A stretch of 34,608 bases of DNA. Source: Candidatus Bathyarchaeota archaeon (lineage in GTDB: Archaea > Thermoproteota > Bathyarchaeia > 40CM-2-53-6 > RBG-13-38-9). Below are positions 6,608-29,370 of this stretch, in pieces. The stretch lies in contig JAGTQV010000004.1 of assembly GCA_018397035.1 (NCBI GenBank), positions 1 through 34,608 on the forward strand, in the 5' to 3' direction. The notes beneath the pieces are model-generated. The model was not told where the DNA came from. It worked only from the letters and a program-made list of their open reading frames with translations, and searched no databases. A program made the position numbers and the translations under genes. How positions within the stretch are numbered: position 1 is the first letter of the stretch; each line of letters begins with the position of its first letter.

Positions 6608-7234
6608 TCACAATCTATTACCATCCAAACTGTATTTCTGAATCGGCATAGCCACTATCTCTTGCACAGTCAGCCTCTTCTCTGGTTGTTTTCCAAAAGC
6701 CTCCTGCTGAGTTGATGTCCTAGTGATGACTGCCGTGTCAACACCTCCTCCAGTACCTCCCACTGCCATAACTCTTGTCTGAGGCTTCATTTTGCCTACT
6801 TCCACAGACACAACCGAGACCTCGACAGCCACCTTCATCCCATGACCGAATGCATATAGTATCTCTCTAGCTGCGGTCCACGCGTCTCCACAGAACGGCA
6901 AGAAGGTCATGTCGAAGACCTCTCTATGCAACTTTTTGCGCTCCAAATCGGAAACCTCCTCCAGACGACTTCTGACAAGGCTCCCGAGGAGGCCTTTGTC
7001 AGAGTAGGCGATACGTTTGCAGGCTGAGATCGCGTCTGTTTCAGAGATCGGGATCACCACGGCCACACCTTGCAGTCTATGAGAAAACATCTCAGCCGTC
7101 TTGCCTGTAGTGAATGGAACAAGAACCACATCTAGGTCTCCAAGGGCGAGCCGTTCTTTCACCGCATCAATCACGAAAACAGTGTTCGCAGGACCAGGAT
7201 TTTCAAAGTAGAATACATTTCTCCTTAGACTCAT
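6608..7234 (-). CDS. Stand-alone pyruvate kinase C-terminal-domain protein (copy 1)
   Basis: A 208-residue protein that matches the alpha/beta C-terminal domain of pyruvate kinase (PF02887) without the catalytic barrel. Visible motifs are FENPGPANTVFVIDAVKERL, VPFTTGKTA and VMAVGGTGGGVDTAVITRTS near the C-terminus. In true pyruvate kinase this domain carries allosteric binding; the role of free-standing copies is unknown. A clear paralogue lies at 13133-13738 in the same orientation. The start ATG at 7234 follows a small run of weak upstream signals; there is no neighbour in an operon. It should not be annotated as pyruvate kinase, since the active-site domains are missing. Confidence 0.8.
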   Translation of the reverse strand: MSLRRNVFYFENPGPANTVFVIDAVKERLALGDLDVVLVPFTTGKTAEMFSHRLQGVAVVIPISETDAISACKRIAYSDKGLLGSLVRSRLEEVSDLERKKLHREVFDMTFLPFCGDAWTAAREILYAFGHGMKVAVEVSVVSVEVGKMKPQTRVMAVGGTGGGVDTAVITRTSTQQEAFGKQPEKRLTVQEIVAMPIQKYSLDGNRL

Positions 7235-8405: not shown

Positions 8406-9404
8406 TCACACTTCTCGCATGAACTTGGCACTGTCCTCGGGAACAATAGTATTGATGTAGATGCCTGAGCCAATCTCGAAGCCAGCCACAGTCCAGATCC
8501 GGGGAACGATCTGCACATACCAGTGTAAGTGTTTCGCATTCTCCTCCTCGACAGGTGCAGTGTGAAAAACATAGTTATAGTCCGGATTCGCAAGCAAGGA
8601 ATTCATTCGTCTGATGCTTTCTCGTAGAACTTTCCCCAACTCTGAAATGTCAGCAGGCTCAATATTTCCGAAGGAGGCCTGATGGTTCTTAGGCGATATC
8701 CACATCTCGAAAGGGTAACGTGAAGCAAACGGATTGAATACCGCAAACTTGTCGTTACCAAAAACAAGCCTGCTCCCAGACTCTATCTCCCAACGATTGA
8801 TGTCGCAATATAGGCATCTACCAGTCCTATTGTAGTAGCTTCCAGCTATCTCTGATTTCTTTTCCGCACAGGCTGAAACGACAGGAGAGGCGACTATCTG
8901 TGAGTGAGGGTGTTCTAAGGAAGTACCTGCCGTCACACCGTGATTCCTGAATATGATTATCATCTTGACACGAGCATCCCCACTCAGGACTGCATACCTG
9001 TCTCGATATGCCTGTATGAGCAGAGCCACGTGGAGCTCATCCATTTCCGACAGTGTTTCATTATGTCTAGGCGATTCTATAATGACCTCGTGGAAGCCGA
9101 AGCCGCCTCTAGCCTTGAAGTGTGAATCTACGAGCTTCTCTTCTGTTGTGGTTTTGGGTGTCAGGGCGGGAAACATGTTTGGAATGATTCTAATGATCCA
9201 ATTCGATCTGTCTGAATCTCTGTGGTATACGGATATCTCAGGAGGTGTTAACCTCTCGTTGCCAGGACAGAAGGGGCAGTCCTCAACGTGATCTGGGAGC
9301 AACCTGACTTCTCTGTCCAATAAGAAATCATATGGACGTTTAGCTCTTTCACGTGCGATGATGACCCATTCATTGGTCGTAGGATCCTGCCTAAGCTCGG
9401 GCAT
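8406..9404 (-). CDS. galT: Galactose-1-phosphate uridylyltransferase
   Basis: A 332-residue HIT-superfamily nucleotidyltransferase. It exchanges UMP between UDP-glucose and galactose-1-phosphate in the Leloir pathway. The active-site stretch is SLEHPHSQ, with the H165-P-H167 pair; the second His is the nucleophile that is uridylylated, and Gln169 follows. CPFC at 43-46 is the zinc or structural cysteine pair. RNHGVTAG and, near the C-terminus, HLHWYVQIVPR are further family elements. Length fits GalT (about 330-350). Archaeal members of this family may instead act on other sugar phosphates or as ADP-glucose phosphorylases, so the substrate is not certain. The ATG at 9404 is the start. The gene stands alone; galU, whose product makes UDP-glucose, is 18 kb away. 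Confidence 0.9.
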   Translation of the reverse strand: MPELRQDPTTNEWVIIARERAKRPYDFLLDREVRLLPDHVEDCPFCPGNERLTPPEISVYHRDSDRSNWIIRIIPNMFPALTPKTTTEEKLVDSHFKARGGFGFHEVIIESPRHNETLSEMDELHVALLIQAYRDRYAVLSGDARVKMIIIFRNHGVTAGTSLEHPHSQIVASPVVSACAEKKSEIAGSYYNRTGRCLYCDINRWEIESGSRLVFGNDKFAVFNPFASRYPFEMWISPKNHQASFGNIEPADISELGKVLRESIRRMNSLLANPDYNYVFHTAPVEEENAKHLHWYVQIVPRIWTVAGFEIGSGIYINTIVPEDSAKFMREV

Positions 9405-11143: not shown

Positions 11144-11243
11144 CCGCGTGTAATCAAGCTGGGGGCAGCCTAAACATCCTTCGAAGATCGTAAGTATCCT
11201 TGCCGTCTCAGTAAGCTTAAGTAGAATGTTTCATGAGCGAACG

Positions 11244-12122
11244 ATGGAATACGAGACCGAGGGGGCGGGAGGCATGGTGAACGATATGGGATTGGAGTCT
11301 GCGTCCAGTGACATCAGGCAGGTCGTCAACAAGAAAGTTGATACATTCATCGGCGAAATGTACGGCTTGGTCAGCGCTGGAGGGGAAGGCCTAAGACTTA
11401 GACCTATCACAATCGAGCAGCCCAAGCCTCTCGTTGAGATAGGATCTGTCAAGCGCCCTCTCATCTACTGGAGCATGCTGCCCATGGTTCTCGGTGGAGT
11501 CACGCGCTTTGTAATTGGTTTGAGACACGGAGCAGGCAAGATCAAGGAGAGGCTTCGTGATGGTGGCGAGTTCAGCCAAGATCTAGGTAGACCGATTTCA
11601 ATTACGTATGTTGAAGAACGCGAGCCACTTGGTAGAGCTGGATGCATAAAGTACGGTATTGAGAATGGTTTGATAGATCCGAAAAGGCCTGCTGTGATAT
11701 TCAATGCTTCAGATATCTTAAGGTTGAATTTACGCAGTCTCGTAGGGCATTACTTGTGGCTCAAGGCGTGTCATGGTTTCGATGTTGTTCAGGTCTACAC
11801 GTCTGGTTTTAGAGTCCAATATGGAATAGGAAAAGTTGACTTTTCCACTTCCCAAGTGATCGATTTCAGAGAGAAGCCGGTATTCCAAGACCTAGCAAAT
11901 ACCGCATGCTACATCATCTACGGAAGACTGGAAGATTTCAGAACAGTTCAAAAAATCCCTTCAAATCCCGAGGACGAACTGATATACAAGTGGTTGAAGG
12001 AAAAAACACTAGGTGCTTATGTGATAAGTCATGAGGACATAATCTCAATAAAGTTCCAGAGAGACCTCGATAAAGTGGACAACATGGATCTTGACAGATA
12101 CGTTAGAAGTGCATATGAGTAA
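11244..12122 (+). CDS. Sugar-phosphate nucleotidyltransferase
   Basis: An NDP-sugar pyrophosphorylase of the NTP_transferase family. The signature SAGGEGLRLRPITIEQPKPL is the nucleotide-binding loop with the metal- and phosphate-contacting R and K. VEEREPLGRAGCIKYGI is the conserved product-binding strand and FNASDIL replaces the usual xNGD. Such enzymes activate a sugar-1-phosphate with NTP; which sugar is unknown. The frame opens at ATG 11226, but a TATA-like TTAAGTA near 11217 predicts transcription start near 11244, so the ATG there (MEYETEG) is preferred. Family members usually begin about ten residues before the signature, which would be Met at 11358, so the first about 38 residues are an unusual acidic extension. 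No left-handed beta-helix domain follows. Confidence 0.8.
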   Translation: MEYETEGAGGMVNDMGLESASSDIRQVVNKKVDTFIGEMYGLVSAGGEGLRLRPITIEQPKPLVEIGSVKRPLIYWSMLPMVLGGVTRFVIGLRHGAGKIKERLRDGGEFSQDLGRPISITYVEEREPLGRAGCIKYGIENGLIDPKRPAVIFNASDILRLNLRSLVGHYLWLKACHGFDVVQVYTSGFRVQYGIGKVDFSTSQVIDFREKPVFQDLANTACYIIYGRLEDFRTVQKIPSNPEDELIYKWLKEKTLGAYVISHEDIISIKFQRDLDKVDNMDLDRYVRSAYE

Positions 12123-13132: not shown

Positions 13133-13738
13133 TCATAACCACTTCATCATCGGCATTGCAACAACTTCTTGTATCACAAGTCGCTTCTCAGGTCTGGGGC
13201 CGAAGGCTTCCTTCCGAGTTGATGTACGAGCAACGATGGCGGTATCAGCGCCTTCTCCAGTGCCTCCCACAGCTACCACTCTGATGTAAGGTCTTGCACG
13301 ACCAACTGCTACCGCTGCCACGCATACCTCAACAGCGACTTTCATCCCTTGTCCAAAAGCGTACAGAACATCCCTCACGACGTTCCAAGTTTTGCCACAG
13401 ATGGGTAGAAGCATCATGTCGAAGATTTGTCTGCGAGCCTCTTTGTCTCTCTCGGAGTCGACTGAAAGATTTCTGCGAACCATTCTGTCAAGCATACTCC
13501 TGTCAGAGACTGGTCTCCGCTCACATACTTCTAGAACTTCATCTTCAGAGATAGCTACCACTTCAGTGTTTCCGAGAGCTTGTTGGAACTGCTGAGCAGT
13601 TCTGCCGGTTGTTGCAGGCACGAGAACGGTCCTCACGTCTCCGAGAGTGAGCCTCTCCTTGACAGCTTCAATCACCAGAGCTGTATTGGCGAAACCTGGA
13701 GTTTCAAAATATGTGACCGTTCTCTTCAAACTGGACAT
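13133..13738 (-). CDS. Stand-alone pyruvate kinase C-terminal-domain protein (copy 2)
   Basis: A 201-residue paralogue of the protein at 6608-7234. Shared blocks are FETPGFANTALVIEAVKERL (FENPGPANTVFVIDAVKERL in copy 1), VPATTGRTA, AVGGTGEGADTAIVARTSTR and PEKRLVIQEVVAMPM. Both fit the PK_C fold (PF02887) and neither has the pyruvate kinase catalytic barrel. The conserved GGTG-x-G-x-DTA segment may be a ligand site. It is divergent from the CPA2 antiporter at 13831, with 92 bp between starts. An AAGGTG about 10 nt before the ATG serves as ribosome binding site. Function unknown. Confidence 0.8.
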   Translation of the reverse strand: MSSLKRTVTYFETPGFANTALVIEAVKERLTLGDVRTVLVPATTGRTAQQFQQALGNTEVVAISEDEVLEVCERRPVSDRSMLDRMVRRNLSVDSERDKEARRQIFDMMLLPICGKTWNVVRDVLYAFGQGMKVAVEVCVAAVAVGRARPYIRVVAVGGTGEGADTAIVARTSTRKEAFGPRPEKRLVIQEVVAMPMMKWL

Positions 13739-13830: not shown

Positions 13831-16050
13831 ATGAAACTTTTGGCCACTGCGCTTTCGTTTGCAGTCTGCTTGATGATGCTTCAGCCGTCAATCTGTGGAG
13901 GAGTGACTGAGGATAGCTTAAGTCTTCTGCACGGTTACATCTACGAGATCTCGAACGGCAGTCAGCGGCCAGTAGCTTTCGCTTCTATCTCAGTCTCTGA
14001 AGCTGGCAGAGCTCCTGTGAGTCGAAGGATGACTGGAGCAGATGGCTCCTATTCCTTTCCACTTTTTTCAGGAATGTACACAATAAGGGTTGAGAAGCCT
14101 GGTTTCATACCTCAAGGAGCCTTTGTCATACTAGAAGCCAACGATACGGTGAGAATCGATTTCTATCTCGAGAAGAGTAACGCACCCTATGAAGCTCAAG
14201 TGATAATCGAAGGTCTGCCGCCGGGGGTCTATCCCAAACTGTTTCTTGACGGCATATTCCACGGCTGGGTTCTGAATGGGTCAGGCTTCCTCTTCGCGAA
14301 GAACCTCTCCCACACTGTGGAGCTGGGGGAGATCTCAGAAGATGGAGTTCGATACGTTCTAGCAAGCGGCAGGACTCAAACATTCGTGGAGGCAGAGACG
14401 AAAGTGTTTCGATACTCTCGTCAGTTCTACGTAAACTCAAGCACCGACCCGTGGAGAGATGGATGGTACGACGAAGGGTCGGTCATTTTTGAGTCAACGC
14501 CAATTATTGATCTGGGCAACGCAAGCCGTCTAGTCTTTGACATTTGGATCGTGGACGGAAAGATTCTAGATGAGAACCCTGTCAAGATCGAAGTTAACTC
14601 CAGTTTCCAGATAGACACCAAGTATAGACGACAGTATTTCCTTCAACTATCTTCTGACAGAAGCGAGGTGATCGGGGGCGGCTGGTACGACGAGGGGTCA
14701 ACTGCCAAGATTTCTGTGAGAGAAACCACTGTAGGCGCATTGCCGTTCAAGTACATATTTGCAGGTTGGAGAGGGGACCTGGAAAGCAACAATACCTTGG
14801 CTGAGGTTCTTGTCGACGGCCCCAAGAACATACACGCTGAATGGCTAAGGAGTGAGGTTTTGAGGATCGAGAAACTTGATCCGATCTACAAGGCGATAAT
14901 CGACATAAGCCTCTTGATCTCTGCGGCCACGATCCTGAGCGGCCTTTTTGCCAAGATCCATCTGCCTGAGGTTTTAGGGGAACTATCAGCCGGCATGATC
15001 CTGGGGCCCTACGCACTAGGCGGGATAAAGGTGCTGAACGAGCCGCTTGTGGAAATCAGCGAGTATCTGATTATCTTCGCCGAAGTTGGAGCGATACTTC
15101 TGCTCTTCGTGGCGGGACTCGAAGTCAGTTTCGGTAAGTTCAGAGCCGTTGTTGCGAAGTCTTCTGTTGTAGGCATCTTCGGTGTTGTCGCTCCATTCTT
15201 CTTGGGCCTCCATGTTCTCGGCCTCTCCGGATACACTTGGAATGCCTCATTACTTGTGGCAGCAGCTCTCACAGCAACGAGTATAGCCATCACCCTCAGG
15301 ACATTGGAAAGCGCTGGAAGGCTAAACTCGATAGAGGGGAACATAATGATCAACGCCGCGGTCATAGATGATGTGCTCGGCCTAGTCGTTCTGGCAGTAG
15401 TAATGTCAATCGTCGCTTCTGGTGCGGCTTTTCAGCCGTATGATGCAATGTGGATCCTATTCCGAACCGTCATATTCTGGCTGATGTTGCTGGCGGCCAC
15501 GTTAGCGGTGGCTCCCAGAGTTGTGCGTGCTGCCGAGTGGTGGAGGGCAAGAGGCACCGTTGAGGTCGCTGCAACCGCCACCTGCTTCGGCAGTGCCGTC
15601 GCGGCGGCGGCTATTGGGTTATCACCCATCGTAGGAGCCTACGCAGCCGGGATGGCTATAGCTAGCTCCAGAGTAATAGCGAGGATCAGGGACTACATAG
15701 AGCGGCTGAGCATGCTCTTCTCACCCATATTCTTCGCAGTCATAGGGGCTCAGTTCAATATAAGCGCCTTGAGCTGGCAGGGGACTTGGATAATTGCAGT
15801 TCTAATCGCGGTGGCTGTGGTAAGCAAACTTGTGGGATGTGGGCTTCCCGCAGCCATAGCACTGAGAAACTCCAAGAGTGGGCTAAGAGTGGGTGTTGGA
15901 ATGATCTCCAGAGGTGAGATCGGGCTGATCATAGCGGGTCTAGGAGTGACCTCGGGCATCATAGATCAGACTCTTTACGGAGCGGTAATAGCCATGGTGA
16001 TCTTCACTACGCTGGTCACGCCTTTAGCGTTGAGGTGGGTGTACGCTTAA
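13831..16050 (+). CDS. CPA2 cation/proton antiporter with secreted ectodomain
   Basis: A 739-residue two-part protein. Residues 1-24 are a signal peptide (MKLLATALSFAVCLMMLQPS). Residues about 28-110 form a carboxypeptidase-regulatory-like beta-sandwich (GYIYEISNGS, VSRRMTGADGSYSFPLFSG, YTIRVEKPGF). The motif GWYDEGS occurs at 211-217 and again at 284-290, each within a beta-rich repeat like those of archaeal surface proteins. From about residue 350 there is a complete Na+/H+ antiporter domain (PF00999, CPA2/KefB-like) with IHLPEVLGELSAGMILGPYA, the acidic pair D513-D514 in AAVIDDVLGL, and SRGEIGLIIAGLG near the end. The D-D pair suggests electrogenic Na+(K+)/H+ exchange. Ordinary CPA2 proteins of about 390-400 residues have no such ectodomain; the fusion is continuous with no frameshift. 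A TATAAAG precedes the ATG. Confidence 0.9.
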   Translation: MKLLATALSFAVCLMMLQPSICGGVTEDSLSLLHGYIYEISNGSQRPVAFASISVSEAGRAPVSRRMTGADGSYSFPLFSGMYTIRVEKPGFIPQGAFVILEANDTVRIDFYLEKSNAPYEAQVIIEGLPPGVYPKLFLDGIFHGWVLNGSGFLFAKNLSHTVELGEISEDGVRYVLASGRTQTFVEAETKVFRYSRQFYVNSSTDPWRDGWYDEGSVIFESTPIIDLGNASRLVFDIWIVDGKILDENPVKIEVNSSFQIDTKYRRQYFLQLSSDRSEVIGGGWYDEGSTAKISVRETTVGALPFKYIFAGWRGDLESNNTLAEVLVDGPKNIHAEWLRSEVLRIEKLDPIYKAIIDISLLISAATILSGLFAKIHLPEVLGELSAGMILGPYALGGIKVLNEPLVEISEYLIIFAEVGAILLLFVAGLEVSFGKFRAVVAKSSVVGIFGVVAPFFLGLHVLGLSGYTWNASLLVAAALTATSIAITLRTLESAGRLNSIEGNIMINAAVIDDVLGLVVLAVVMSIVASGAAFQPYDAMWILFRTVIFWLMLLAATLAVAPRVVRAAEWWRARGTVEVAATATCFGSAVAAAAIGLSPIVGAYAAGMAIASSRVIARIRDYIERLSMLFSPIFFAVIGAQFNISALSWQGTWIIAVLIAVAVVSKLVGCGLPAAIALRNSKSGLRVGVGMISRGEIGLIIAGLGVTSGIIDQTLYGAVIAMVIFTTLVTPLALRWVYA

Positions 16051-16147
16051 GGGGATCAGGCTGTCGAGCCTTCGTCCTCATTATCTTTGAACTCCGGCAA
16101 GATAGGAATTATCAGAACATTTAACATGTCGTCTAACAGTCTGTTGA

Positions 16148-17416
16148 GTGGGACCTATATCGATGCCGGATCTTGCGATAGTCCATTACACGGCACCACC
16201 CAGAGAGATGGGTGGTGTCGAGATCGTGATTGAGTCCCATGTGAAGTTTCTGTCTGAACTAGGATACAATGTGCGGGTGATCTTCGGCAGCGGTGGAGGA
16301 CTGGACTACCATAACGTCACGGAACACAAGATTCCGTTGCTGTGGCCTAACCACCCCAGAATTCAAGCAGTTCAGGAGGAGCTTCTTCGCGAAGGGAAGA
16401 GTGACGACTTTGACTCAGTAAGAGATGATATCACTGAAGATCTCAGTAAGGCTCTCAGAGGTGTGGATGCATGTATAGTTCATAACATTCCTTCCATGCC
16501 TTTCAATTTTGCTGCGACAGCGGCAGTTAATAATGTCGCGGATAAGTTGAGGAGGACCATATTCTGGGTTCATGACAGCGCACTCCTCAGGGATGAATGG
16601 TCACAGAAGAAGCAGCTTTTCCCCTTCACTTTGCTTAATCACAAATCCAAGAACATATGCTACGTCACTCCGACAGCGGTCAGAGCGAAGGAGCTTGCAG
16701 AGCTCGATGAACCTTACAAGATCGAGAATTCGATAGTCGTCCCTAATGGTGTGAGTATTGAGGAGTTCATCAAGATAGACGAGACTACAAAGCTTCTGAT
16801 GAGGAAACTCGGCCTCTCCTTCGAGAATTATATAATAGTGACCCCTGTCAGAGTTACCCCGAGAAAGAATATTGAACTTGCACTTTTTGTTGTTGATGAG
16901 TTGCAGCATCTTATCGGTAGATCCCGACAGATCAAGTTTCTGATAACAGGTCCACCTGACCACCAAGCCTCAAAACTAGGTAAGGCCTACCTTGAGTACT
17001 TGAGTGAACTTATCGTTAGGAGGGGGCTGACAGAGAACGTGATCTTCTGCCACGAGTTGATAAATCAGAAACGAGAATATCAAAACGGCAGCATCCAGAA
17101 ATGGAGTGTCGCCGATGTCTACAATATTGCAGACCTTGTACTCATCCCAAGCAAGGAGGAGGGTTTCGGCCTGCCTGTGATCGAGGCAGGAGCAGCCCGT
17201 AAACCGATCTTCTGCTCCAGGATCCCCCCATTTCAGGAGCTGATCAGAGACGACATTGAAGGATTCATGTTTGATCTGGCGGAGGATCCGAAGAGCATCG
17301 CATTCAGAATCTACAGGCGATACTTAGAAGACAGGGTTGACAACAACTTCGACAATGTGATCAAGAGATTTACTTGGGAATCGATAATCAAGAAGAAGAT
17401 TATCCCACTACTCTAG
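16148..17416 (+). CDS. GT4-family glycosyltransferase
   Basis: A GT-B fold glycosyltransferase of family GT4. The N-terminal domain starts PDLAIVHYTAPPREMGGVEI, where the GG loop faces the acceptor. The C-terminal donor domain has VVPNGVS, TPVRVTPRKNIELAL (the R..x4..K pair for the donor phosphate) and PSKEEGFGLPVIEAGAAR, the E-x7-E element that binds the donor sugar nucleotide. Donor and acceptor are unknown. The GTG at 16148 is about 26 nt after a TTTAACA box, consistent with a leaderless start; ATG at 16163 is the alternative and gives a more usual N-terminus. It lies 97 bp after the antiporter, likely with its own promoter. Confidence 0.85.
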   Translation: MGPISMPDLAIVHYTAPPREMGGVEIVIESHVKFLSELGYNVRVIFGSGGGLDYHNVTEHKIPLLWPNHPRIQAVQEELLREGKSDDFDSVRDDITEDLSKALRGVDACIVHNIPSMPFNFAATAAVNNVADKLRRTIFWVHDSALLRDEWSQKKQLFPFTLLNHKSKNICYVTPTAVRAKELAELDEPYKIENSIVVPNGVSIEEFIKIDETTKLLMRKLGLSFENYIIVTPVRVTPRKNIELALFVVDELQHLIGRSRQIKFLITGPPDHQASKLGKAYLEYLSELIVRRGLTENVIFCHELINQKREYQNGSIQKWSVADVYNIADLVLIPSKEEGFGLPVIEAGAARKPIFCSRIPPFQELIRDDIEGFMFDLAEDPKSIAFRIYRRYLEDRVDNNFDNVIKRFTWESIIKKKIIPLL

Positions 17417-17454
17417 AAAACATATTGCATTCTGAGATTCCATGGTGTGGAAGA

Positions 17455-18186
17455 ATGTTTGAGGAGCTTATGCCTGGAATATGGACAGAATTCTTACAGG
17501 CAATCCCCAGATTTCTCTTTGCTGTGGCAATCCTAGCTCTCGGATGGGTCACAGGACATCTCTTAGGCAGAGGTCTCTCACTGCTGCTCGTGAGGCTTGG
17601 TTTCGAGAGTCTTCTGCACAGAACAATTCTGGGCAAAGCGCTGGAGCAGTCAGGTACAACATGTGTGAAGTTCTTCGAGTTTACTATAAGATGGATCGTC
17701 TATCTGTTGGCGATTCTTCTTGCACTCGACCTGTTTCAGGTCAGGGTTCTCAGGACTCTCGTTCAGACCATGCCCGAGTATCTTCCTAACATCGTCGCGG
17801 GGCTTCTGGTACTGTTCATAGGGTTTGTTGTGGTGGACTTCATAGCAGACATCGCCAGGGTCATTGGGTCTCAGGCTAGAGTGGAGTTGGCTGGGTTCTT
17901 GTCTATTGGACTGAGGCTGATCGGCTACTACGTCGTCGCCGTCATCGCATTAGGTATGATGAGGATCGACGTCACCATCCTTAACACGATCGGAAACGCT
18001 CTTGCCTGGGGCATCGCGCTTGGAGCAGGTTTGGGCATAGGGATCGCTTTCGGCTTCGGTCTTAAGGACTACGTAGCCAAGAACGTGGAAAACTGGGTCA
18101 GCGCAACAAAGGAAGTCGCTAAAAAGCCGGAAGACTTCTGGTCCTGGTACACCAGGACCAGAGAGGGAAAGGAGTCTGAAACCTAG
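17455..18186 (+). CDS. MscS-type membrane protein (TM-helix repeats)
   Basis: A protein of 243 residues from ATG 17455. It has five or so hydrophobic segments: FLFAVAILALGWVTGHLLG, IRWIVYLLAILLALDLFQV, LPNIVAGLLVLFIGFVVVDF, a third pair around LRLIGYYVVAVIALGM, and a Gly/Ala-rich helix ALAWGIALGAGLGIGIAFGF. The repeating L-x3-P-N/I-x2-A-G-L-L pattern is that of the TM-helix repeat found with small-conductance mechanosensitive channels (PF05552). The C-terminal beta and alpha domains of classical MscS are missing, so channel function is inferred. An upstream in-frame ATG at 17374 would overlap the GT4 gene and gives a polar extension; I prefer 17455. Its stop overlaps the stop of the convergent GT81-like gene. 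Confidence 0.75.
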   Translation: MFEELMPGIWTEFLQAIPRFLFAVAILALGWVTGHLLGRGLSLLLVRLGFESLLHRTILGKALEQSGTTCVKFFEFTIRWIVYLLAILLALDLFQVRVLRTLVQTMPEYLPNIVAGLLVLFIGFVVVDFIADIARVIGSQARVELAGFLSIGLRLIGYYVVAVIALGMMRIDVTILNTIGNALAWGIALGAGLGIGIAFGFGLKDYVAKNVENWVSATKEVAKKPEDFWSWYTRTREGKESET

Positions 18187-19592
18187 ATGACTCTCAGCAA
18201 CCCTGCTTTGCTGAGTCTTGAGAATGTGCTCTGGTTGCTCCTCGTCCGCAGAAGCGAGCTCACGGCAAAGTAGTTGATCTCTGAGCTGAGTTCTCTCCAA
18301 GACGGCAGTAGAAACTGTCCTGCATCAGGATCGTGCAGGAACTTGGCTCTGAACTCCCCGTAGAATCTTCTGAATCTCTGCATATCGATCTCTCTTGAAT
18401 AGTGTATTCTGTGATCAACATCGACTTGTCTCTGGAGAACCTCAAAGCTCCTCCAATAGGCTGGCAGCATGGCCAGTGCTTCTTTCCTATATTGTGAGAC
18501 CACTTTTTTTCTCCTCTCCTTGGAGAGTCGAACTCCTTCAGTTTCCAAGGTCCTGAGAACTCTGTTGGTTATCTGGAATATCATCGCATCGAGTCCTCTG
18601 GCTGTCTGACCGATATGGAGGAACACGTCGAGGTCGACCTGAGCTATGGCTGAAGGGGATAGCCTCCTCATGGATTGGTTCAGAATCGAGAATTCGATGC
18701 TGTAGTCGCTTGGAAAGCGTATGCTCTCCAGCAGCTCTCGTCTAGCCGCGAACTCTCCCGAGAGCGGGTACTTCAGCCGGTCGAATCCTCGGAATATGGT
18801 TGGAAACTCCTTAGTCAGAACCTTCATGAGCGGGATCGCGAAGAGCCTCGTCACCCTTCCTCCAAACGTGTATGATCCATGTGGATACTCGTAGATCATT
18901 GTTAGCCTCTTGTAGTACGCCTTGGTCATCATGAGGCGCCTCCTTCTTCTCCTGAGCACCTCGACGATAGGATGGCACAGTGCCACGGCGAACTCCTTCT
19001 GAAAATTCATGATGTCGGAGTCGAGGAAGCATACGATGTCACCCTTTGTCATGGGGAGGGCAAGCCACAGCGCAGCGCCTTTACCCGGCGGGATGGTTCT
19101 TAGGCCAGCCCTGTTTGAGGCACCGTACTTCTCGAGTACGTGAAACAGGTTCCTGTCGAACTGGTGAACAGCCTTGACTATGAAATCGAAGAATCCTCTC
19201 CTCGAGTGTATGGCCTCTGCACGATTCTCCCTTAGCAGACCTACCTGCCGCCTGAAGAGGTCGAGTTCTTCATAGGCAGTCTCCACGACCTTGACGAGTG
19301 TCGAGAAGTCTGCATTGCCATGCTGATCAAGGGATCCGTCGATGACCAAGATCTCGTCGATATATCCTAGGTCGATGAGTTTGCTACATTCAGAGAGCAC
19401 TCTCTTGAGGACATCCAGTTCGAGTTCACGCGTCTTCCTGCCGACGTCTATCTTGGTAGGTATCACAAGAGAGATCAAGAGAGGCCTCCTGAGGTCTGCT
19501 TCATCACGGATGAAACTATTCAGCTTCCTGTCTAAGCACTCAGCAATATCGAAGTTCCTGTATGAACCCAGGTCGGCAACCTCACGCCGCAA
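18183..19592 (-). CDS. gpgS: Glucosyl-3-phosphoglycerate synthase-like GT81 glycosyltransferase
   Basis: A 469-residue GT-A enzyme, last gene of a four-gene operon. GKGAALW (170-176), the metal-binding D191-S-D193 in CFLDSDIMNF, then GGRVTRLFAIPLM, YPLSGEFAARRELLESI and AIAQVDLDVFLH follow the order of GpgS. That enzyme transfers glucose from an NDP-glucose to D-3-phosphoglycerate, the first step of glucosylglycerate synthesis. The segment SDYSIEFSIL takes the place of the family's GYGVEIGLL, so some divergence in substrate is possible. The protein is longer than bacterial GpgS (about 300-330), with extra N- and C-terminal parts. The start is TTG at 19592; GAGGT 7 nt upstream supports it. Synthase versus related sugar transfer is inferred. 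Confidence 0.75.
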   Translation of the reverse strand: MRREVADLGSYRNFDIAECLDRKLNSFIRDEADLRRPLLISLVIPTKIDVGRKTRELELDVLKRVLSECSKLIDLGYIDEILVIDGSLDQHGNADFSTLVKVVETAYEELDLFRRQVGLLRENRAEAIHSRRGFFDFIVKAVHQFDRNLFHVLEKYGASNRAGLRTIPPGKGAALWLALPMTKGDIVCFLDSDIMNFQKEFAVALCHPIVEVLRRRRRRLMMTKAYYKRLTMIYEYPHGSYTFGGRVTRLFAIPLMKVLTKEFPTIFRGFDRLKYPLSGEFAARRELLESIRFPSDYSIEFSILNQSMRRLSPSAIAQVDLDVFLHIGQTARGLDAMIFQITNRVLRTLETEGVRLSKERRKKVVSQYRKEALAMLPAYWRSFEVLQRQVDVDHRIHYSREIDMQRFRRFYGEFRAKFLHDPDAGQFLLPSWRELSSEINYFAVSSLLRTRSNQSTFSRLSKAGLLRVI

Positions 19593-19603
19593 AAATGATA
19601 ACC

Positions 19604-20257
19604 TCAGTCAAGTCTCTGCTTGAGGAATGCTATCGCTTGATAGAAGTCTTGAACAATAGCATCTGCCTCAGCCTTTATTCTCTCAGTCTTCGGATTGTAC
19701 GCTACTGAGATATTCGCCCCCAGCAACATACAGTAGTCAGAGTCGCCATCACCGATCGCAACCGAGACCCCTCCCAGAGCACTCTGAAGAGACTTGAGAA
19801 GGCGAAGTTTGCAGACAAGATATTCCTTGCAATGAGGGATCTTCAAACAGCCGGGCACTGTAAGAACTTTCCCAGTCAAGCGATATCCGTTGAATTGCAG
19901 CCTATTCGCATACACAAGATCCAGATGAAGTCTGTTCTTCAGCCTGTCGGCTAGAAACTTGTATGAGTCTGTGGCTAGAGCAATAACGAAACCTCTCTCT
20001 CTTAGGAATGAGATGAACTCATGAACTCCTGCGTTCAGGGGGATCGTATCAAAAACATCCTCCAACTCAGACCTCCCCTTACCCGATAGGAGTTCAGCTA
20101 TCCTCATGGTGACCATGGATCTCGGAGCTTCCCTGAAATCAAGATCCAACTGCCTGAGCTTGGACGTGAGGCCAAACCGCTCGCATAGTACGTCAATGGA
20201 TCTCTTCGATAGTATCGTCCCATCCATATCCAGTACGGCGACGCCAACCTTCAACAT
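19604..20257 (-). CDS. HAD-superfamily phosphatase (candidate glucosyl-3-phosphoglycerate phosphatase)
   Basis: A 217-residue HAD phosphatase of the phosphoserine phosphatase type. The nucleophile motif is D10-M-D12-G-T. A C1 cap follows (from about residue 17 to 85). Motif II is LATDSYKF and the acidic motif is GDGDSDY with D170, D172 and D174. These signs suggest dephosphorylation of a small phosphate ester. The position directly before a GpgS-like gene and after a GT4 gene suggests that it removes phosphate from glucosyl- or mannosylglucosyl-3-phosphoglycerate. The ATG at 20257 is preferred, with GAGGG upstream and a 7-bp gap after the GT4 gene; a start at 20296 would overlap that gene. 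Confidence 0.75.
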   Translation of the reverse strand: MLKVGVAVLDMDGTILSKRSIDVLCERFGLTSKLRQLDLDFREAPRSMVTMRIAELLSGKGRSELEDVFDTIPLNAGVHEFISFLRERGFVIALATDSYKFLADRLKNRLHLDLVYANRLQFNGYRLTGKVLTVPGCLKIPHCKEYLVCKLRLLKSLQSALGGVSVAIGDGDSDYCMLLGANISVAYNPKTERIKAEADAIVQDFYQAIAFLKQRLD

Positions 20258-20264
20258 ATATCCC

Positions 20265-21422
20265 TCAAGATTCCAAGACCTCTTTGTACACTTCAAGTGT
20301 CTTCTCAGCAGCTAGGTCCCAGTTGAAGAGAGCCTCAACCCTCTTCCTGCCCTCCGAACCCATCCTCTGGCGCATTTCTGGGTCTCTTAGAAGTCGGATG
20401 ATGCCTGATGCCAACCCCTTATGGTCTGCAGGCCTTGCCAGAATCCCCGTCTCCCCATCTACGACAACCTCAGGGATTGCGCAGTGATTGAAAGCCACGA
20501 CAGGTCTTGCCGTGGCCTGAGCCTCGGCAGGGGTCAGACCAAAACCCTCCCACATGCTGGGGTAGCAGAAGACATCACAGGCCGAGTACAGTTGCGGAAT
20601 CTCTTCGTCAGGCAAATACCCCGTAAAGACAAGGGCGTTGCGAATCCTACTCAGGAGGGATTGACTCATCTTAACCCGATCGAACCTCGTTCCACCCGCT
20701 ATGACGAACTTCGCGTCCGGGCATACCTCCAAGACAAGAGGGACGGCCTTGATCAGATACTGCACTCCTTTGTATGGGTCCATCCTTCCCACGTACAGGA
20801 CAGTCGCTCCGTCAAATATCCCATATTTCTCCCAGATAGCAGAGTTATCTGTTCGCGGATGAAACCTCTCAAGATCGACACCATTGTATACTAGCGATAT
20901 CTTCGCTTCATCGACCTGATAGAACCTAGTCAGTAGTCCCTTGATGTACCGGCTGATCGCGATGACCTTGTCCACGCCTGCATGCAACGCGATGATCGTT
21001 CCGATGTTGTGATCTATCATCTTGAGTTTCTGAGTCGGATTCGACCAGCTTCTGACAGGTGCATATCCGTGGAATGTGAAAACATGTGGGATACCCCTTA
21101 ACGCACGAACATAGTTCCCGACGAATATGCCAGGGTGATACTGAGTATGAATAAGGTCAAAGTCTTTGATGCGGGTGCCGCACTTGGCCATGAATCCGAA
21201 GTGGCGGATGAAGCGGAGCCCTGAACCTCTGAATTTGACTTCGACAGCCTCAACCGGCGATATGTCCTCAAAGGCTTCGCGCGTTAAGACTTTGACTTCG
21301 ATGCCTCTTTCACTAAGCCTCCTAGTAAGTTGCCCTATGTGAACAGTCTGGCCGGAGGCTTTGTGCAGTGTACTTCTAACAACGGCTACCCTCAAATCGG
21401 ATCGTCCTTGGTGTGGCTTCAC
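20265..21422 (-). CDS. GT4-family glycosyltransferase of the compatible-solute-like operon
   Basis: A 385-residue GT-B fold enzyme. The N-terminal domain carries SGQTVHIGQLTRRLSERGIE and THGYAP-like FTFHGYAP; the donor domain has VYNGVDLERFHP, LYVGRMDPYKGVQYLIKAVP and PSMWEGFGLTPAEAQATARP. All are classic for GT4. The GTG at 21422 lies 6 bp after the stop of the gene at 21429, with GGGTGA as ribosome binding site. In Petrotoga-type bacteria a GT4 enzyme (MggA) adds mannose to glucosyl-3-phosphoglycerate beside a phosphatase, so a similar second sugar transfer is a reasonable hypothesis, though GT4 sequence does not fix the substrate. Confidence 0.85.
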   Translation of the reverse strand: MKPHQGRSDLRVAVVRSTLHKASGQTVHIGQLTRRLSERGIEVKVLTREAFEDISPVEAVEVKFRGSGLRFIRHFGFMAKCGTRIKDFDLIHTQYHPGIFVGNYVRALRGIPHVFTFHGYAPVRSWSNPTQKLKMIDHNIGTIIALHAGVDKVIAISRYIKGLLTRFYQVDEAKISLVYNGVDLERFHPRTDNSAIWEKYGIFDGATVLYVGRMDPYKGVQYLIKAVPLVLEVCPDAKFVIAGGTRFDRVKMSQSLLSRIRNALVFTGYLPDEEIPQLYSACDVFCYPSMWEGFGLTPAEAQATARPVVAFNHCAIPEVVVDGETGILARPADHKGLASGIIRLLRDPEMRQRMGSEGRKRVEALFNWDLAAEKTLEVYKEVLES

Positions 21423-21428
21423 TCCAAT

Positions 21429-22670
21429 TCACCCTGTGAAGTAATGTGATAGAAGGAAGGGTTTCTGTTCTTCAAAGACAGCGGCTTCCTGCTCTGTAAA
21501 GCGGTCAGCTTCTTCGTCAGTCATCTTCTCCGTCTCGAGGAGAAAGCTGCATACCTTTCCAAGCCAGAGTCCTCTCAGCGAGCTCAGGAGTTCGTTGAAC
21601 CTCCCGTCATCTGTCTCCCTTGCGCAGGCACAAGCAAATGAGTAGACCGTTCTGGCCCATACCTCAGGAGGGATCGAGATGCGTTGCGAACTCGATGCTT
21701 CGCTCAGGGTCTCAAAAAGATCCTGTTCAAGTACGTCTCTAAGAATTGCCCTCTTGTTTGCAAGGGTCTCTTTGAATCCACTGTGAAGTCTGGAGGGGAC
21801 GACCTTCACCGGCTCCGGTCCAGGAAAGGAGAACGGGTATTCAAGGAGTGGCACGGGTTCGCTACGTGATACTCGTCGCCAATACTCATAGTAGTCTCTT
21901 GCACAAGTGAACATTGAGCCGGCAACCTGTACAAACATCGCCGCGATCTCAGCTCCAGGATCCTTGGCCTCATGGATCTTTGACCCTAGAAAGGCCTCCT
22001 TGACAGTGAAGCCTCGGGCGATGGCTGTATGAGTTATGAATATGTCAACGCCGAATCGTTGGATATACGCGCTTTTCCACAGCGGGCTTTTGAGGAGATT
22101 GGTGACTAGAGAGGCTGAGAGGCCGAAGTCGCCACCAATCGGTTGGCGGACCTTGAGGCCATAGACTGCCTGTGTGAACGGGTAGCAGAGGTTGTTTGTT
22201 ATTGTCCCATCATATTTGTGTCGAATGTAGAGGGGGGCTATGAGGTCTGCCTCGTTCGAAGCAGCCTCAAGAACGATCTTACACCATTCAGGAGTGATGC
22301 TTCGCAGATCAGAATCGAACATTGCGGTGCCTTGCGCATTAAGGGCGGAGGAAGTCTCTAGGATCGCTCTAACAGCAGACCCCTTTCCAGCCAAGCCTGT
22401 GTAAGTGGTGAATAGACGATCCACTCCATCAAGCTTAATCGCCTCGACCACTTGCTTCGTTCCATCTTGCGATCCTCCGTCAGAGATCAGAATTAGTGAC
22501 TTTTGCTCTGGAAAGTACTTCTTGAGCCCTCTTGCCACTTGATGCAAGACGTAGCCTATTGTATGAGCGCAGTTGTAAGATGGTACTCCCACCAACAGAT
22601 CAGTCTTACCGATATGGGATAGCCGTTCTGCCGACTTGGGATCAAGACCAGTGAGTCTCGCTGTGCTCAT
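21429..22670 (-). CDS. GT2/GT78-like glycosyltransferase (mannosyl- or glucosylglycerate synthase-like)
   Basis: A 413-residue GT-A enzyme opening the operon. The donor domain shows GVPSYNCAHTIGYVL, SDGGSQDGT and the metal site D119-S-D121 in AMFDSDL. The stretches RHKYDGTITN (150-159) and VRQPIGGDFGLS (174-185) are the ones I associate with the mannosylglycerate/glucosylglycerate synthase group. Those enzymes join an NDP-sugar directly to D-glycerate, without a phosphorylated intermediate. A C-terminal helical part (residues 280-413) is also present in that group. The ATG at 22670 follows an A/T-rich box about 24 nt upstream. Exact sugar donor and acceptor are inferred from motif memory, not from a database search. 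Confidence 0.75.
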   Translation of the reverse strand: MSTARLTGLDPKSAERLSHIGKTDLLVGVPSYNCAHTIGYVLHQVARGLKKYFPEQKSLILISDGGSQDGTKQVVEAIKLDGVDRLFTTYTGLAGKGSAVRAILETSSALNAQGTAMFDSDLRSITPEWCKIVLEAASNEADLIAPLYIRHKYDGTITNNLCYPFTQAVYGLKVRQPIGGDFGLSASLVTNLLKSPLWKSAYIQRFGVDIFITHTAIARGFTVKEAFLGSKIHEAKDPGAEIAAMFVQVAGSMFTCARDYYEYWRRVSRSEPVPLLEYPFSFPGPEPVKVVPSRLHSGFKETLANKRAILRDVLEQDLFETLSEASSSQRISIPPEVWARTVYSFACACARETDDGRFNELLSSLRGLWLGKVCSFLLETEKMTDEEADRFTEQEAAVFEEQKPFLLSHYFTG

Positions 22671-22782
22671 ACCTTGAGATTAGGGAAAGGTTTCTTATGT
22701 AGTTTCCACAACCGGAGAGATCATTTGATCTCAAAGACTAGAATTATTAGTCAACAGAGACAATTCTGAAGGCGTACTCGTC

Positions 22783-23982
22783 ATGTCTGATGTGTCTCTA
22801 GCACTGTTTCTGACTGCCGCAATAATAGTGGCAGGCTCTCTTGGCAGCTTTCTTTTTCGCAAAACAGGCATCCCCGACATGATCTTTCTCGTGATGCTGG
22901 GTATCCTGCTCGGGCCTGTATCTGGTGTCATTCTGCTGAAGGACATCGAACCGCTTGCTCCTTACTTAGCCATGCTGACCTTGACAATAATCCTGCTTGA
23001 TGGGGGGATGAGCCTCAACCTGCGCCAGACTATCAGGCAGAGTCCTCGTGCTATCATGATTGCAGTCCTAGGGTTTGTCTTGAGCGCAATCACTGTCGCC
23101 TTCTTCACAAGGTTGATGTTAGGGTTGAGCTGGTTGGAGGGACTGCTACTTGGGAGTATCGTGGGCGGAAGCAGCTCAATCGTGGTTGTATCTCTGGCCA
23201 CGAGAATGGGGGTGAGTGAGGAGTGTTCAACCACTCTGGTCTTGGAGTCTGCAATAACTGATGTCCTCTGCACAGTTGCAGCTCTAACCTTGATCGGTGT
23301 GATCTTGTCCGGTTTGCCCACGATGGAGGCGCTGACACAAGTCCTCGCTCAGAAATTCTCGATAGGTGCAATGCTGGGTTTGGTCCTCGGCTTAGTCTGG
23401 GTGGGTGCACTCTCAAGGATGAGGAATGAGCCGTACCGATACATGTTGACCTTGGCCGCACTCTTTTTGGCCTACCTAACATCAGAATCCCTTGGCGGAA
23501 GTGGAGCGCTGTCAGTTCTTGCATTTGGCATAGTACTTGGGAACGAGGAAGCGTTCTCTGGTTTGTCTAGCAGATCAGAAACGCCCATTTGCATCGATGA
23601 GTCATTCAGAAGGCTAGAGTCAGAAATCGCTTTCGTCACAAAGGCGTTCTTTTTTGTTTATCTAGGACTAATAGTCAGTTTTCCCAGCATTTTCTTCGTT
23701 GCTTATGGGCTAATGCTATCGCTTCTTCTGCTTGCTACCCACTACGTCGCTGTCAGCGTGTCAACCCTAGGAAGTCCGCTGCGAAGGGAGAAAGGATTGA
23801 TGAGCGTCGTTTACGCCAGAGGGCTTGCCGCTGCAGTCCTTGCGCTTCTTCCTCAGAAGTTTGGTCTAGGGAACTACCAGATCTATGTTCCAACAGTTCT
23901 TATGGTAATATTAACTACGACACTCATCACAACGATAGGCGTCTTTCACTTCTCACGCAAAACAATGGATACCAAAACGTAA
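22783..23982 (+). CDS. Cation/proton antiporter (CPA1/CPA2-like)
   Basis: A 399-residue membrane protein covering one full PF00999 domain. It has GSFLFRKTGIPDMIFLVMLG, the helix IILLDGGMSLNL, GGSSSIVVVSLATRMG and the ion-site helix LVLESAITDVLCTVAALTLI with D160. The residue before D160 is Thr, where CPA1 proteins have Asn and electrogenic CPA2 proteins have Asp. It therefore may be an electroneutral exchanger with altered cation choice. No cytoplasmic RCK domain follows. It is divergent from the GT78-like gene with 112 bp between starts, so shared control with the compatible-solute operon is possible. The ATG at 22783 has only weak upstream signals. Confidence 0.85.
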   Translation: MSDVSLALFLTAAIIVAGSLGSFLFRKTGIPDMIFLVMLGILLGPVSGVILLKDIEPLAPYLAMLTLTIILLDGGMSLNLRQTIRQSPRAIMIAVLGFVLSAITVAFFTRLMLGLSWLEGLLLGSIVGGSSSIVVVSLATRMGVSEECSTTLVLESAITDVLCTVAALTLIGVILSGLPTMEALTQVLAQKFSIGAMLGLVLGLVWVGALSRMRNEPYRYMLTLAALFLAYLTSESLGGSGALSVLAFGIVLGNEEAFSGLSSRSETPICIDESFRRLESEIAFVTKAFFFVYLGLIVSFPSIFFVAYGLMLSLLLLATHYVAVSVSTLGSPLRREKGLMSVVYARGLAAAVLALLPQKFGLGNYQIYVPTVLMVILTTTLITTIGVFHFSRKTMDTKT

Positions 23983-27428: not shown

Positions 27429-28295
27429 TTGTTGGTCAGTAAGGCTGTGATCCCGGTTGCGGGTCTAGGTACAAGGCTCAACCCGGCCACGAAGGAGCTC
27501 CCGAAGGAGATGCTCCCGGTCTTCACGAACTCCCCGAACGGCGAGGTCTGCCTCAAACCCTTGGTCCAGCTTATCTTCGAGAATCTGCACAGCTTCGGCA
27601 TCAAAGAGTTCTGCTTCATAATAGGCAGGGGGAAGAGAGTTATAGAAGACCACTTCACCCAGGACCCTGGGTTTCTGCAGATTCTGAGGGCAAGGGGCAG
27701 GGACAAATCGGCCTCTGACCTGAAGAGATTCTATGATAGGCTTGAGAGCTCAAAGATAGTCTGGGTGAATCAGCCCGAGCAGAGAGGATTCGGTGAGGCG
27801 GTTCTAAGGGGAAGGCCGGTGGTAAGCGGCGGAGGATTCCTAGTCCATGCAGGCGACACCTACATCATATCCAAGAACCATGAATACCTGACACATCTGG
27901 TTAACGAGTATCAGAGGCTGAGCGCCGACGCTGTCCTCCTCCTGAAGGAGGTCAGCAACCCAAGCCAGTATGGGGTCGCGGAAGTCGAGAGAATAGGCGG
28001 CGACATGTTAAGGGTCCTCAGCGTCGTCGAGAAGCCGCAGAGGCCGCAGACGAATCTCGCGATAATGCCGATCTACATCTTCGACCCCGTCATATTCAAG
28101 GCATTGGAGAATACTCGACCAGACAGAGGAGGAGAACTCCAGCTGACAGACGCGATCCAGAAATTGATCGAGTGGAACCTGAAGGTGTACGCGATAAGGC
28201 TCAGGGCTGATGAGGTCTGGCTCGACATCGGCAACCCTGAGATGTACTGGGACGCCCTCTCAACCTCATACAGCCGCGCCAAGACCCCAACATGA
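27429..28295 (+). CDS. galU: UTP--glucose-1-phosphate uridylyltransferase
   Basis: A 288-residue enzyme making UDP-glucose from UTP and glucose-1-phosphate. Signature IPVAGLGTRLNPATKELPKE is the GalU nucleotide-binding loop. Others are VNQPEQRGFGEAVL, LVHAGDTYI (metal aspartate), SVVEKPQRPQT and GGELQLTDAIQ. The length is typical of GalU. The first gene of a three-gene operon that leads on to UDP-glucuronate and UDP-xylose; the next gene starts 19 bp after its end. The start is TTG at 27429 or TTG at 27432, both near GGCGG-type weak ribosome binding signals. Confidence 0.92.
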   Translation: MLVSKAVIPVAGLGTRLNPATKELPKEMLPVFTNSPNGEVCLKPLVQLIFENLHSFGIKEFCFIIGRGKRVIEDHFTQDPGFLQILRARGRDKSASDLKRFYDRLESSKIVWVNQPEQRGFGEAVLRGRPVVSGGGFLVHAGDTYIISKNHEYLTHLVNEYQRLSADAVLLLKEVSNPSQYGVAEVERIGGDMLRVLSVVEKPQRPQTNLAIMPIYIFDPVIFKALENTRPDRGGELQLTDAIQKLIEWNLKVYAIRLRADEVWLDIGNPEMYWDALSTSYSRAKTPT

Positions 28296-28314
28296 AGAAT
28301 TAAGGCTCAACGAG

Positions 28315-29370
28315 ATGTTGAACAACATATCACTCGGTGAGCTTGAGGAGATACTGTTAATCCCCAGTCTTGAGAGCCTTAGCGGAGAAAAGATCCTGAT
28401 TACAGGTGGGGCTGGATTCCTGGGCAGCTGGCTCTCAGACTCGTTGATCGAGCTTGGGGCCAGCCTAGTCTGTGTGGACAATCTCTCCTCAGGCTCCATC
28501 AACAACATCGCACACCTAGAGAGATCGAAGAGGTTCAGATTCATCCAGGCCGACGTTGAGGAGTTGGAGAAGGCTGTACATGAACACGGTTTCAAGTATA
28601 TTCTGCACCTCGCCAGCAGAGCCTCCCCAGAGGATTATCAAGCCCACCCTGTGGAGACGTTGACCACGAACTCTCTAGGGACTCTGAGGGCTCTCGAGGC
28701 CGCAAGAAGAGACAACTCAACCTTCCTATTCGCCTCAACCTCAGAAGTCTACGGGGATGCAGAGGTGATACCTACACCTGAAGACTACTGGGGAAAAGTG
28801 AATCCGATAGGCCCACGCTCACCATACGATGAGAGCAAGAGATTCAGTGAGGCACTATGCAAAGCCTACGAGAGAAGGCATGGTCTGGATGTCCGGATCC
28901 TTCGCATCTTCAACTCGTTCGGCCCCCGCCTCAGGCCTGAAGGCCTATACGGCCGCGCCGTCTCAAGATTCATAATGCAGGCGGTTGAAGGAGCCCCAAT
29001 AACGGTCTACGGGGACGGCTCCCAGACCAGATCCTTCTGCTACGTAACAGACACTGTCAAAGGGATCTTGCAAGCCTTGACAAAGGACTCTGCCCGCGGC
29101 GAGGTCTTCAACATTGGGAGGCCTGAGGAGACTAGCATACTCGAACTGGCAAGGAAGATAAAGACCCTCACATGCAGTAACTCAGCGATAACATTCCACC
29201 CACTCCCACAGGACGACCCGAAAAGGAGATGCCCGGACATATCTAAGGCGAAGAGGATGCTGGACTGGCAGCCTGAGATCCAGCTTGAGGAAGGGCTGAG
29301 ACGGACGATCGCTTGGTTCCGGACAGACCACGCAGGACGCCTCCTCAAGAAGAAAATGGGTGAGGAGTAA
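28315..29370 (+). CDS. UDP-glucuronate decarboxylase (UDP-xylose synthase)-like SDR
   Basis: An extended short-chain dehydrogenase of 351 residues. The NAD+ loop is GGAGFLG at 31-37, followed by VCVDNLSSGS. HLASRASPEDY, STSEVYGDAEV and PEDYWGKVNPIGPRSPYDES match the UXS subgroup, with catalytic Y171-x3-K175. UXS oxidises UDP-glucuronate at C4, decarboxylates it and returns UDP-xylose. Its place between galU and UDP-glucose dehydrogenase supports this over a dTDP-glucose dehydratase. ATG 28315 is preferred, with AAGG upstream; earlier in-frame starts overlap galU. Its TAA stop overlaps the ATG of the next gene (TAATG), so the two are translationally coupled. Confidence 0.85.
   Translation: MLNNISLGELEEILLIPSLESLSGEKILITGGAGFLGSWLSDSLIELGASLVCVDNLSSGSINNIAHLERSKRFRFIQADVEELEKAVHEHGFKYILHLASRASPEDYQAHPVETLTTNSLGTLRALEAARRDNSTFLFASTSEVYGDAEVIPTPEDYWGKVNPIGPRSPYDESKRFSEALCKAYERRHGLDVRILRIFNSFGPRLRPEGLYGRAVSRFIMQAVEGAPITVYGDGSQTRSFCYVTDTVKGILQALTKDSARGEVFNIGRPEETSILELARKIKTLTCSNSAITFHPLPQDDPKRRCPDISKAKRMLDWQPEIQLEEGLRRTIAWFRTDHAGRLLKKKMGEE

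Follow-up and report, generated by a model that had tools for sequence, protein, structure and literature searches.

A probable osmoadaptation gene block combining GT81-like and GT78-like glycosyltransferases with cation/proton antiporters in a Bathyarchaeota archaeon

Introduction

A contig of a Candidatus Bathyarchaeota archaeon (JAGTQV010000004.1, GenBank assembly GCA_018397035.1) carries a block of glycosyltransferase, phosphatase, and cation/proton antiporter genes, which is probably an osmoadaptation island in which a phosphorylating module and a direct module make an anionic sugar-glycerate solute. The window, by which we mean the whole stretch of DNA analyzed, is one complete 34.6 kb contig from an assembly of 1.70 Mb that is 74% complete. 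Within the block, four genes on the minus strand encode a GT78-like protein, a GT4 glycosyltransferase (designated as GT4a), an HAD phosphatase, and a GT81-like protein and are separated by 6, 7, and 11 bp, respectively, where the 7 bp gap between GT4a and HAD presumes an ATG start of the HAD gene at 20257. We describe these genes by the family, fold, and active-site residues of their products and by their order, conservation, and co-occurrence, and from this we infer the substrates, sugar donors, product, regulation, and physiological role of the block.

An earlier interpretation made from the letters alone (the sequence-only reading) had proposed this tight operon, with gaps of 6–11 bp, as the producer of a glycerate-based solute in osmoadaptation. 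The predicted open reading frames (ORFs) and gaps agree with that proposal, and the interpretation is supported in outline, with two amendments: a second GT4 gene (GT4b) joins the block, and a neighboring transmembrane-helix (TM-helix) protein is demoted from channel to channel-related protein. Family searches of the four operon proteins, and structure searches of the GT81-like and GT78-like ones, returned GT81-like, GT4, HAD-IB, and GT78-like matches, as had been expected.

Results

The GT81-like protein, of about 470 residues, is longer than known GpgS proteins in both its N-terminal and its C-terminal part. Pfam gave no match for it, while its NCBIfam scores for NF010496 (glucosyl-3-phosphoglycerate synthase; 133 bits, cut-off 262) and NF040724 (92 bits, cut-off 700) lie under the equivalog cut-offs, and we therefore classify it as GpgS-like and not as an equivalog. 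A profile of 11 GT81 homologues matched GpgS/MpgS in the PDB with an E-value of 8.6e-38. When the AlphaFold model (predicted local distance difference test score, pLDDT, 86.6) was compared with the PDB by Foldseek, the first 41 matches were GpgS or actinobacterial MpgS (best E-value 1.3e-14, the others weaker; TM-score to target 0.68–0.81), followed by MpgS of Pyrococcus and Thermus.

The roles of the active-site residues of Mycobacterium tuberculosis GpgS, including K114, D134, D136, E232, and H258, have been described (PMC2581804). K171, D191, D193, E300, and H326 of the GT81-like protein map to these residues and are invariant in the 11 homologues, and the ion-pair network (DxD, Lys, and Glu) and the metal His are thus kept. 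Its motifs are DSD (191–193), GGRVT (244–248), PLSGE (276–280), Y297, and M337; the Val/Thr motif for the 3-phosphoglycerate carboxylate (V247 and T248) and the donor loop PLSGE are both retained. Every GpgS active-site position examined is kept, most of them being invariant across the family. By the argument of PMC2581804, the presence of PLSGE in place of PLGGE suggests that glucose is the donor. The GT81 proteins of two related loci, L021 (9983–11392) and L022 (9980–11389), drift in these motifs, with DAD for DSD, GGRIC for GGRVT, and PLAGE, which may change their acceptor.

The GT78-like protein scored 22.9 bits against Pfam MGS_GT (gathering score 27), and as a single sequence it gave a weak match in the PDB (E-value 0.026). 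MGS_GT was matched by 12 of 14 GT78-like homologues at E-values of 0.01 or lower, and a profile of the 14 members retrieved mannosylglycerate synthase (MGS) first (1.9e-5) and GpgS second. The best eight Foldseek matches of its model (pLDDT 91) in the PDB were all MGS, aligned over the full length (403–411 columns) with an E-value of 1.9e-16 and a TM-score of 0.68–0.71 by query, whereas GpgS matches began at 6.8e-9. The model includes the full MGS fold with its C-terminal domain. The protein keeps the DxD motif, the catalytic Asp, the metal His, the Ile-Thr pair for the glycerate carboxylate, and the PxGGx loop; the residues concerned are DSD 119–121, I157-T158, PIGGD 177–181, D209, H233, and M245, of which D119, D121, I157, T158, P177–D181, D209, and H233 are invariant in the 14 homologues. 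In loci L120–L124, from other classes of the phylum, GT78-like relatives have as neighbors a GHL6 glycoside hydrolase-like protein (about 720 residues), a TrmB-type regulator, or both, and a sugar ABC transporter adjoins in L120, L123, and L124.

Lipid or N-glycan glycosyltransferase families were considered for both proteins and are ruled out by the fold and profile searches, in line with the sequence-only reading.

The operon HAD is SerB-like with a score under the cut-off. The operon HADs keep the catalytic Asp, Lys, and Asp, but every one of the 10 has Arg at the position of SerB Glu20 (M. jannaschii numbering), the ligand of the serine amine. The loss of Glu20 and the existence of a separate SerB-like paralogue elsewhere in the genome disfavor the operon HAD as the phosphoserine phosphatase of this genome; Glu20 is absent from the paralogue too, and we therefore do not claim the latter as the SerB of the cell. 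In genome G009, the GT81 cluster includes an HAD-IA gene, and a search of that genome turned up no HAD-IB with a comparable score, which fits a generic dephosphorylation role.

GT4a is closest to the GlgM/glgA_Coryne type. A Petrotoga-like GT4 step had also been proposed: a GT4 nearest to mannosylglucosylglycerate synthase does exist, but it is the plus-strand GT4b, which the sequence-only reading did not mention and which lies between the CPA2 antiporter and TM-helix genes as part of the conserved block. The best NCBIfam match of GT4b is mannosylglucosylglycerate synthase NF041101 (76 bits, nearly end to end); as 76 is far under the cut-off of 640, the name is a lead and not a membership. All seven GT4b homologues match NF041101, where an L021 frame with a stop was excluded from the alignment. 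At E-values of 1e-10 or lower, GT4b was the sole NF041101 match in each of the six GT4b-bearing genomes among 12 searched, and the other six gave no match; among 14 control genomes, Thermotoga maritima alone matched. Of 151 genomes, six contain a GT4b orthologue scoring above 500 bits, and all six possess GT81.

The distribution of the block was examined by tblastn with the window proteins. The gene set recurs on seven other archaeal contigs with its order rearranged, which speaks against a chance grouping. GT81, HAD, and GT4a occur together in L021–L028 and L031, accompanied in many by GT78 and/or GT4b. Bathyarchaeota archaeon JdFR-07 and M8_bin1642 share the gene set, their GT81 being about 40% identical, in keeping with a Bathyarchaeota-like host. 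The GT4a-HAD-GT81 core of genomes G003 and G007 has the same Mrp and cupin flanks as that of the window. Relative to G003, further genes are present in the window at two places: NhaP and GT78 lie between Mrp and GT4a, and the interval from GT81 to the nucleotidyltransferase holds CPA2, GT4b, and the TM-helix gene. Mis-binning of the metagenome-assembled genome is unlikely because the Mrp, cupin, and Lrp flanks are syntenic with G003 (Mrp and cupin also with G007). An MgtE-type transporter of divalent cations and two further GT2 genes join the block in the Bathyarchaeota loci L021/L022 (L021: 11405–12610, 6906–8087, and 15830–17008). Next to GT81 in G009 stands a phosphorylase of the GH13_18 type (228 bits to sucrose phosphorylase); this type was found in 2 of 19 genomes (G009 and G002), both with GT81. 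The GH13_18 subfamily includes glucosylglycerate phosphorylase (PMC11009771).

Independent loci in other families combine similar genes. In family f11, a canonical GpgS (NF040724, 550 bits) neighbors an MpgP-type HAD-IIB phosphatase (TIGR02461, 236 bits), with a Na/Ca exchanger adjoining in L034, L035, L036, and L086, NhaP antiporters in L034, L085, and L086, and a true MscS channel gene adjoining GpgS in L086. A GT78-like gene (>300 bits) is present in six of the seven f11 genomes with GpgS and in none of at least 24 without it (hypergeometric probability about 1e-5, calculated by hand and uncorrected for relatedness); in the seventh, the only GT78-like match was a short fragment at the edge of a contig. 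The GT78-like and GpgS genes are adjacent in G143, and family f3 provides a further case in G036, where a relative of the L086 MscS gene, NhaP, a GalT-like gene, GT78, and GT4a stand in a row. In three families, the block has ion and mechanosensitive genes as conserved companions, in line with the association with osmotic genes suggested before.

The operon had been placed between a CPA2-type and a second antiporter, and this is correct: the flanking proteins are of the CPA2 and NhaP types, both matching PF00999. These are both of the PF00999 matches detected in the assembly, and the chance of two randomly placed antiporters falling within 5 kb of the operon is about 9e-5. A CPA2 homologue lies near the block core in G006 (L025), and in G036, G113, G119, and G138 an NhaP relative stands beside a GT78 or GpgS gene. 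Among genomes with 0–5 PF00999 antiporters each, an antiporter lies within 5 kb at 6 of 17 loci (0.31 expected); collapsed to families, the figure is 3 of 5 (0.30 expected, P about 0.001). The relatedness of the genomes, and the fact that the window itself prompted the question, make the per-family figure the fairer one, and even that does not amount to a formal test. The TM-helix protein, which had been called MscS-type, does carry the 'conserved TM helix' PF05552 of MscS, but this alone, so that it is only channel-related. Its gene adjoins GT4b, HAD, or GT81 in four other genomes (loci L026, L027, L030, and L032).

The features of the block and two possible nucleoside diphosphate (NDP)-sugar suppliers are given in Table 1. 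Alignment of homologues backs the TTG start of the GT81-like gene. Relatives of the nucleotidyltransferase gene neighbor the block core in G003 and G007, and those of the GalT-type gene in G006, G007, and G008; a DDE transposase gene (PF01609, 10035–11039) separates the two in the window. The contig also holds a uridine diphosphate (UDP)-sugar run at 27429–30704, with GalU-like, epimerase/dehydratase, and UDP-glucose dehydrogenase genes. Elsewhere on it lie a Na/Ca exchanger and a CitMHS-type transporter (2609–3601 and 5147–6535), as well as a pair of related proteins of about 200 residues with no Pfam match (6608–7234 and 13133–13738), a homologue of which adjoins the CPA2 gene in L025.

Table 1. 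Genes of the block and candidate NDP-sugar supply genes in the window
Feature	Position	Strand	Basis
GalT-type hexose-1-phosphate uridylyltransferase, possible NDP-sugar supplier	8406–9404	-	Near the core in G006, G007, and G008
Sugar-1-phosphate nucleotidyltransferase, possible NDP-sugar supplier	11226–12122	+	PF00483
CPA2-type cation/proton antiporter (CarboxypepD_reg domain at the N terminus)	13831–16050	+	PF00999
GT4b glycosyltransferase	ORF 16148–17416, likely ATG 16163	+	Closest curated family NF041101
Small membrane protein with two PF05552 repeats (TM-helix protein)	17455–18186 (ORF 17374–18186)	+	Pfam
GT81-like, predicted glucosyl-3-phosphoglycerate synthase	18183–19592	-	GpgS profile, fold, residues
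HAD-IB phosphatase with SerB-like fold, predicted sugar-phosphoglycerate phosphatase	19604–20257	-	Family, catalytic residues
GT4a, predicted second sugar transferase	20265–21422	-	Closest known GlgM/glgA_Coryne type
GT78-like synthase, predicted direct glycerate glycosyltransferase	21429–22670	-	MGS fold, residues
NhaP-type antiporter, K+/H+ antiporter PRK05326-like, divergent from the GT78-like gene	22783–23982	+	PF00999

Discussion

The block very probably makes a glycerate-based sugar that balances salt, and it seems to encode both a two-step and a one-step start of the pathway. In the phosphorylating module (GT81, HAD, and perhaps GT4a), GT81 would glucosylate 3-phosphoglycerate and HAD would strip the phosphate to give glucosylglycerate, while GT4a might add a second sugar either before or after dephosphorylation. 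In the direct module (GT78 and GT4b), the GT78-like protein would glycosylate free D-glycerate, and GT4b would add mannose to give mannosylglucosylglycerate or a close relative. The product is probably mannosylglucosylglycerate in addition to glucosylglycerate. We offer more tentatively, and would not count on it, the stronger idea that two complete starts and several elongating transferases together yield mannosylglucosylglycerate or a longer glycerate-primed oligosaccharide. The solute would act as an osmolyte and K+ counter-ion, while ion and pressure handling would fall to the pair of antiporters, perhaps joined by the TM-helix protein. Glucosylglycerate (PMC11009771) and mannosylglucosylglycerate in Rhodopirellula (PMC3694870) have both been reported as K+ counter-ions under nitrogen limitation, a role that would explain K+/H+-type antiporters as neighbors.

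Several observations weigh against this interpretation. The GT78-like protein and MGS share only about 15% identity, and relatives of the former in other classes of the phylum (L120–L124) have a different context. The matches to NF041101, GpgS, and SerB all fall under equivalog cut-offs, and we therefore regard these proteins as divergent members. The MscS beta domain PF00924 was not found in the TM-helix protein by Pfam, and several genomes show no antiporter linkage. Finally, GT81-HAD-GT4a occurs with neither GT4b nor GT78 in G003, G006, and G008, all of them close relatives, which makes the second module optional; the locus is a phosphorylating core plus an optional second module.

Such core-only genomes, together with the differing context of GT78 in other classes, would also be expected if GT81-HAD(-GT4a) alone made the glycerate solute and the GT78-like protein and GT4b served other acceptors (a surface glycan or lipid), being neighbors by chance or for other reasons. 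We consider this unlikely, because GT4b orthologues are restricted to GT81 genomes, the occurrence of GT78-like genes follows that of GpgS in f11, with the two adjacent in G143, the Ile-Thr glycerate motif is invariant, and the best fold matches are MGS only. It is similarly improbable that GT81 and HAD make a glucosylglycerate primer for GT4a, GT4b, and GT78 to extend into a longer oligosaccharide, as in mycobacterial methylglucose lipopolysaccharide. The four glycosyltransferases do exceed the needs of a one- or two-sugar solute, GT4a is closest to glucan-type enzymes, and two more GT2 genes stand beside the core in L021/L022; however, no methyl- or acyltransferase was recognized near the core among those of the neighboring ORFs that were scanned, the ion and mechanosensitive neighbors suit a solute better, and the phosphorylase beside GT81 in G009 suits turnover of a small glucoside. 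An ordinary surface-glycan locus (N-glycan or exopolysaccharide) drawing on the nearby UDP-sugar genes is very improbable: although NDP-sugar genes lie on the same contig and GT4 families are frequent in surface glycan synthesis, the folds and active sites of the GT81- and GT78-like proteins match soluble glycerate enzymes, the operon includes a phosphatase, and no flippase or oligosaccharyltransferase was recognized among the window proteins scanned.

The probable osmoadaptation island offers a concrete and testable mechanism of osmoadaptation for Bathyarchaeota-like archaea. GT81 and GT78 genes are seen traveling together, and organic-solute synthesis, K+/H+ antiport, and mechanosensitive genes are joined in one rearranging neighborhood, which supports a role of anionic sugar-glycerates as counter-ions to K+ under nitrogen shortage. 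If the proposal is true, mannosylglucosylglycerate-type chemistry would extend to archaea; in the literature searched, we found no report of archaeal mannosylglucosylglycerate or a longer glycerate-primed oligosaccharide and no published sugar-glycerate solute of Bathyarchaeota.

Among known systems, the GpgS/GpgP pathway (GT81) of Methanococcoides, mycobacteria, and cyanobacteria shares DSD, GGRVT, and PLSGE followed by an HAD phosphatase, whereas the window GT81 is longer and diverges from both equivalogs and the phosphatase is HAD-IB, unlike the HAD-IIB MpgP/GpgP type seen in f11. With Rhodothermus marinus MGS (GT78), the window protein shares the full-length fold including the C-terminal helical part, the DxD motif, the metal His, the Ile-Thr motif, and the PxGGx donor loop, in spite of its low identity and its score under the Pfam MGS_GT cut-off. 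Mycobacterial methylglucose lipopolysaccharide synthesis shares GpgS and a GlgM-like GT4, but the window has GT78-like and MggS-like genes instead of methyl- and acyltransferases, which were not recognized among the genes scanned. Petrotoga mobilis reportedly makes mannosylglucosylglycerate by two routes, one with GpgS, MggA, and a phosphatase and the other with Ggs and MggS. Like this gene content, the window combines a GpgS-like protein, a GT4, and a phosphatase, with a GT4 nearest to the curated MggS beside a candidate direct glycerate enzyme; it differs in being archaeal, in its GT78-like direct enzyme and HAD-IB phosphatase, in matches far under the equivalog cut-off, and in holding these genes in one block with antiporters.

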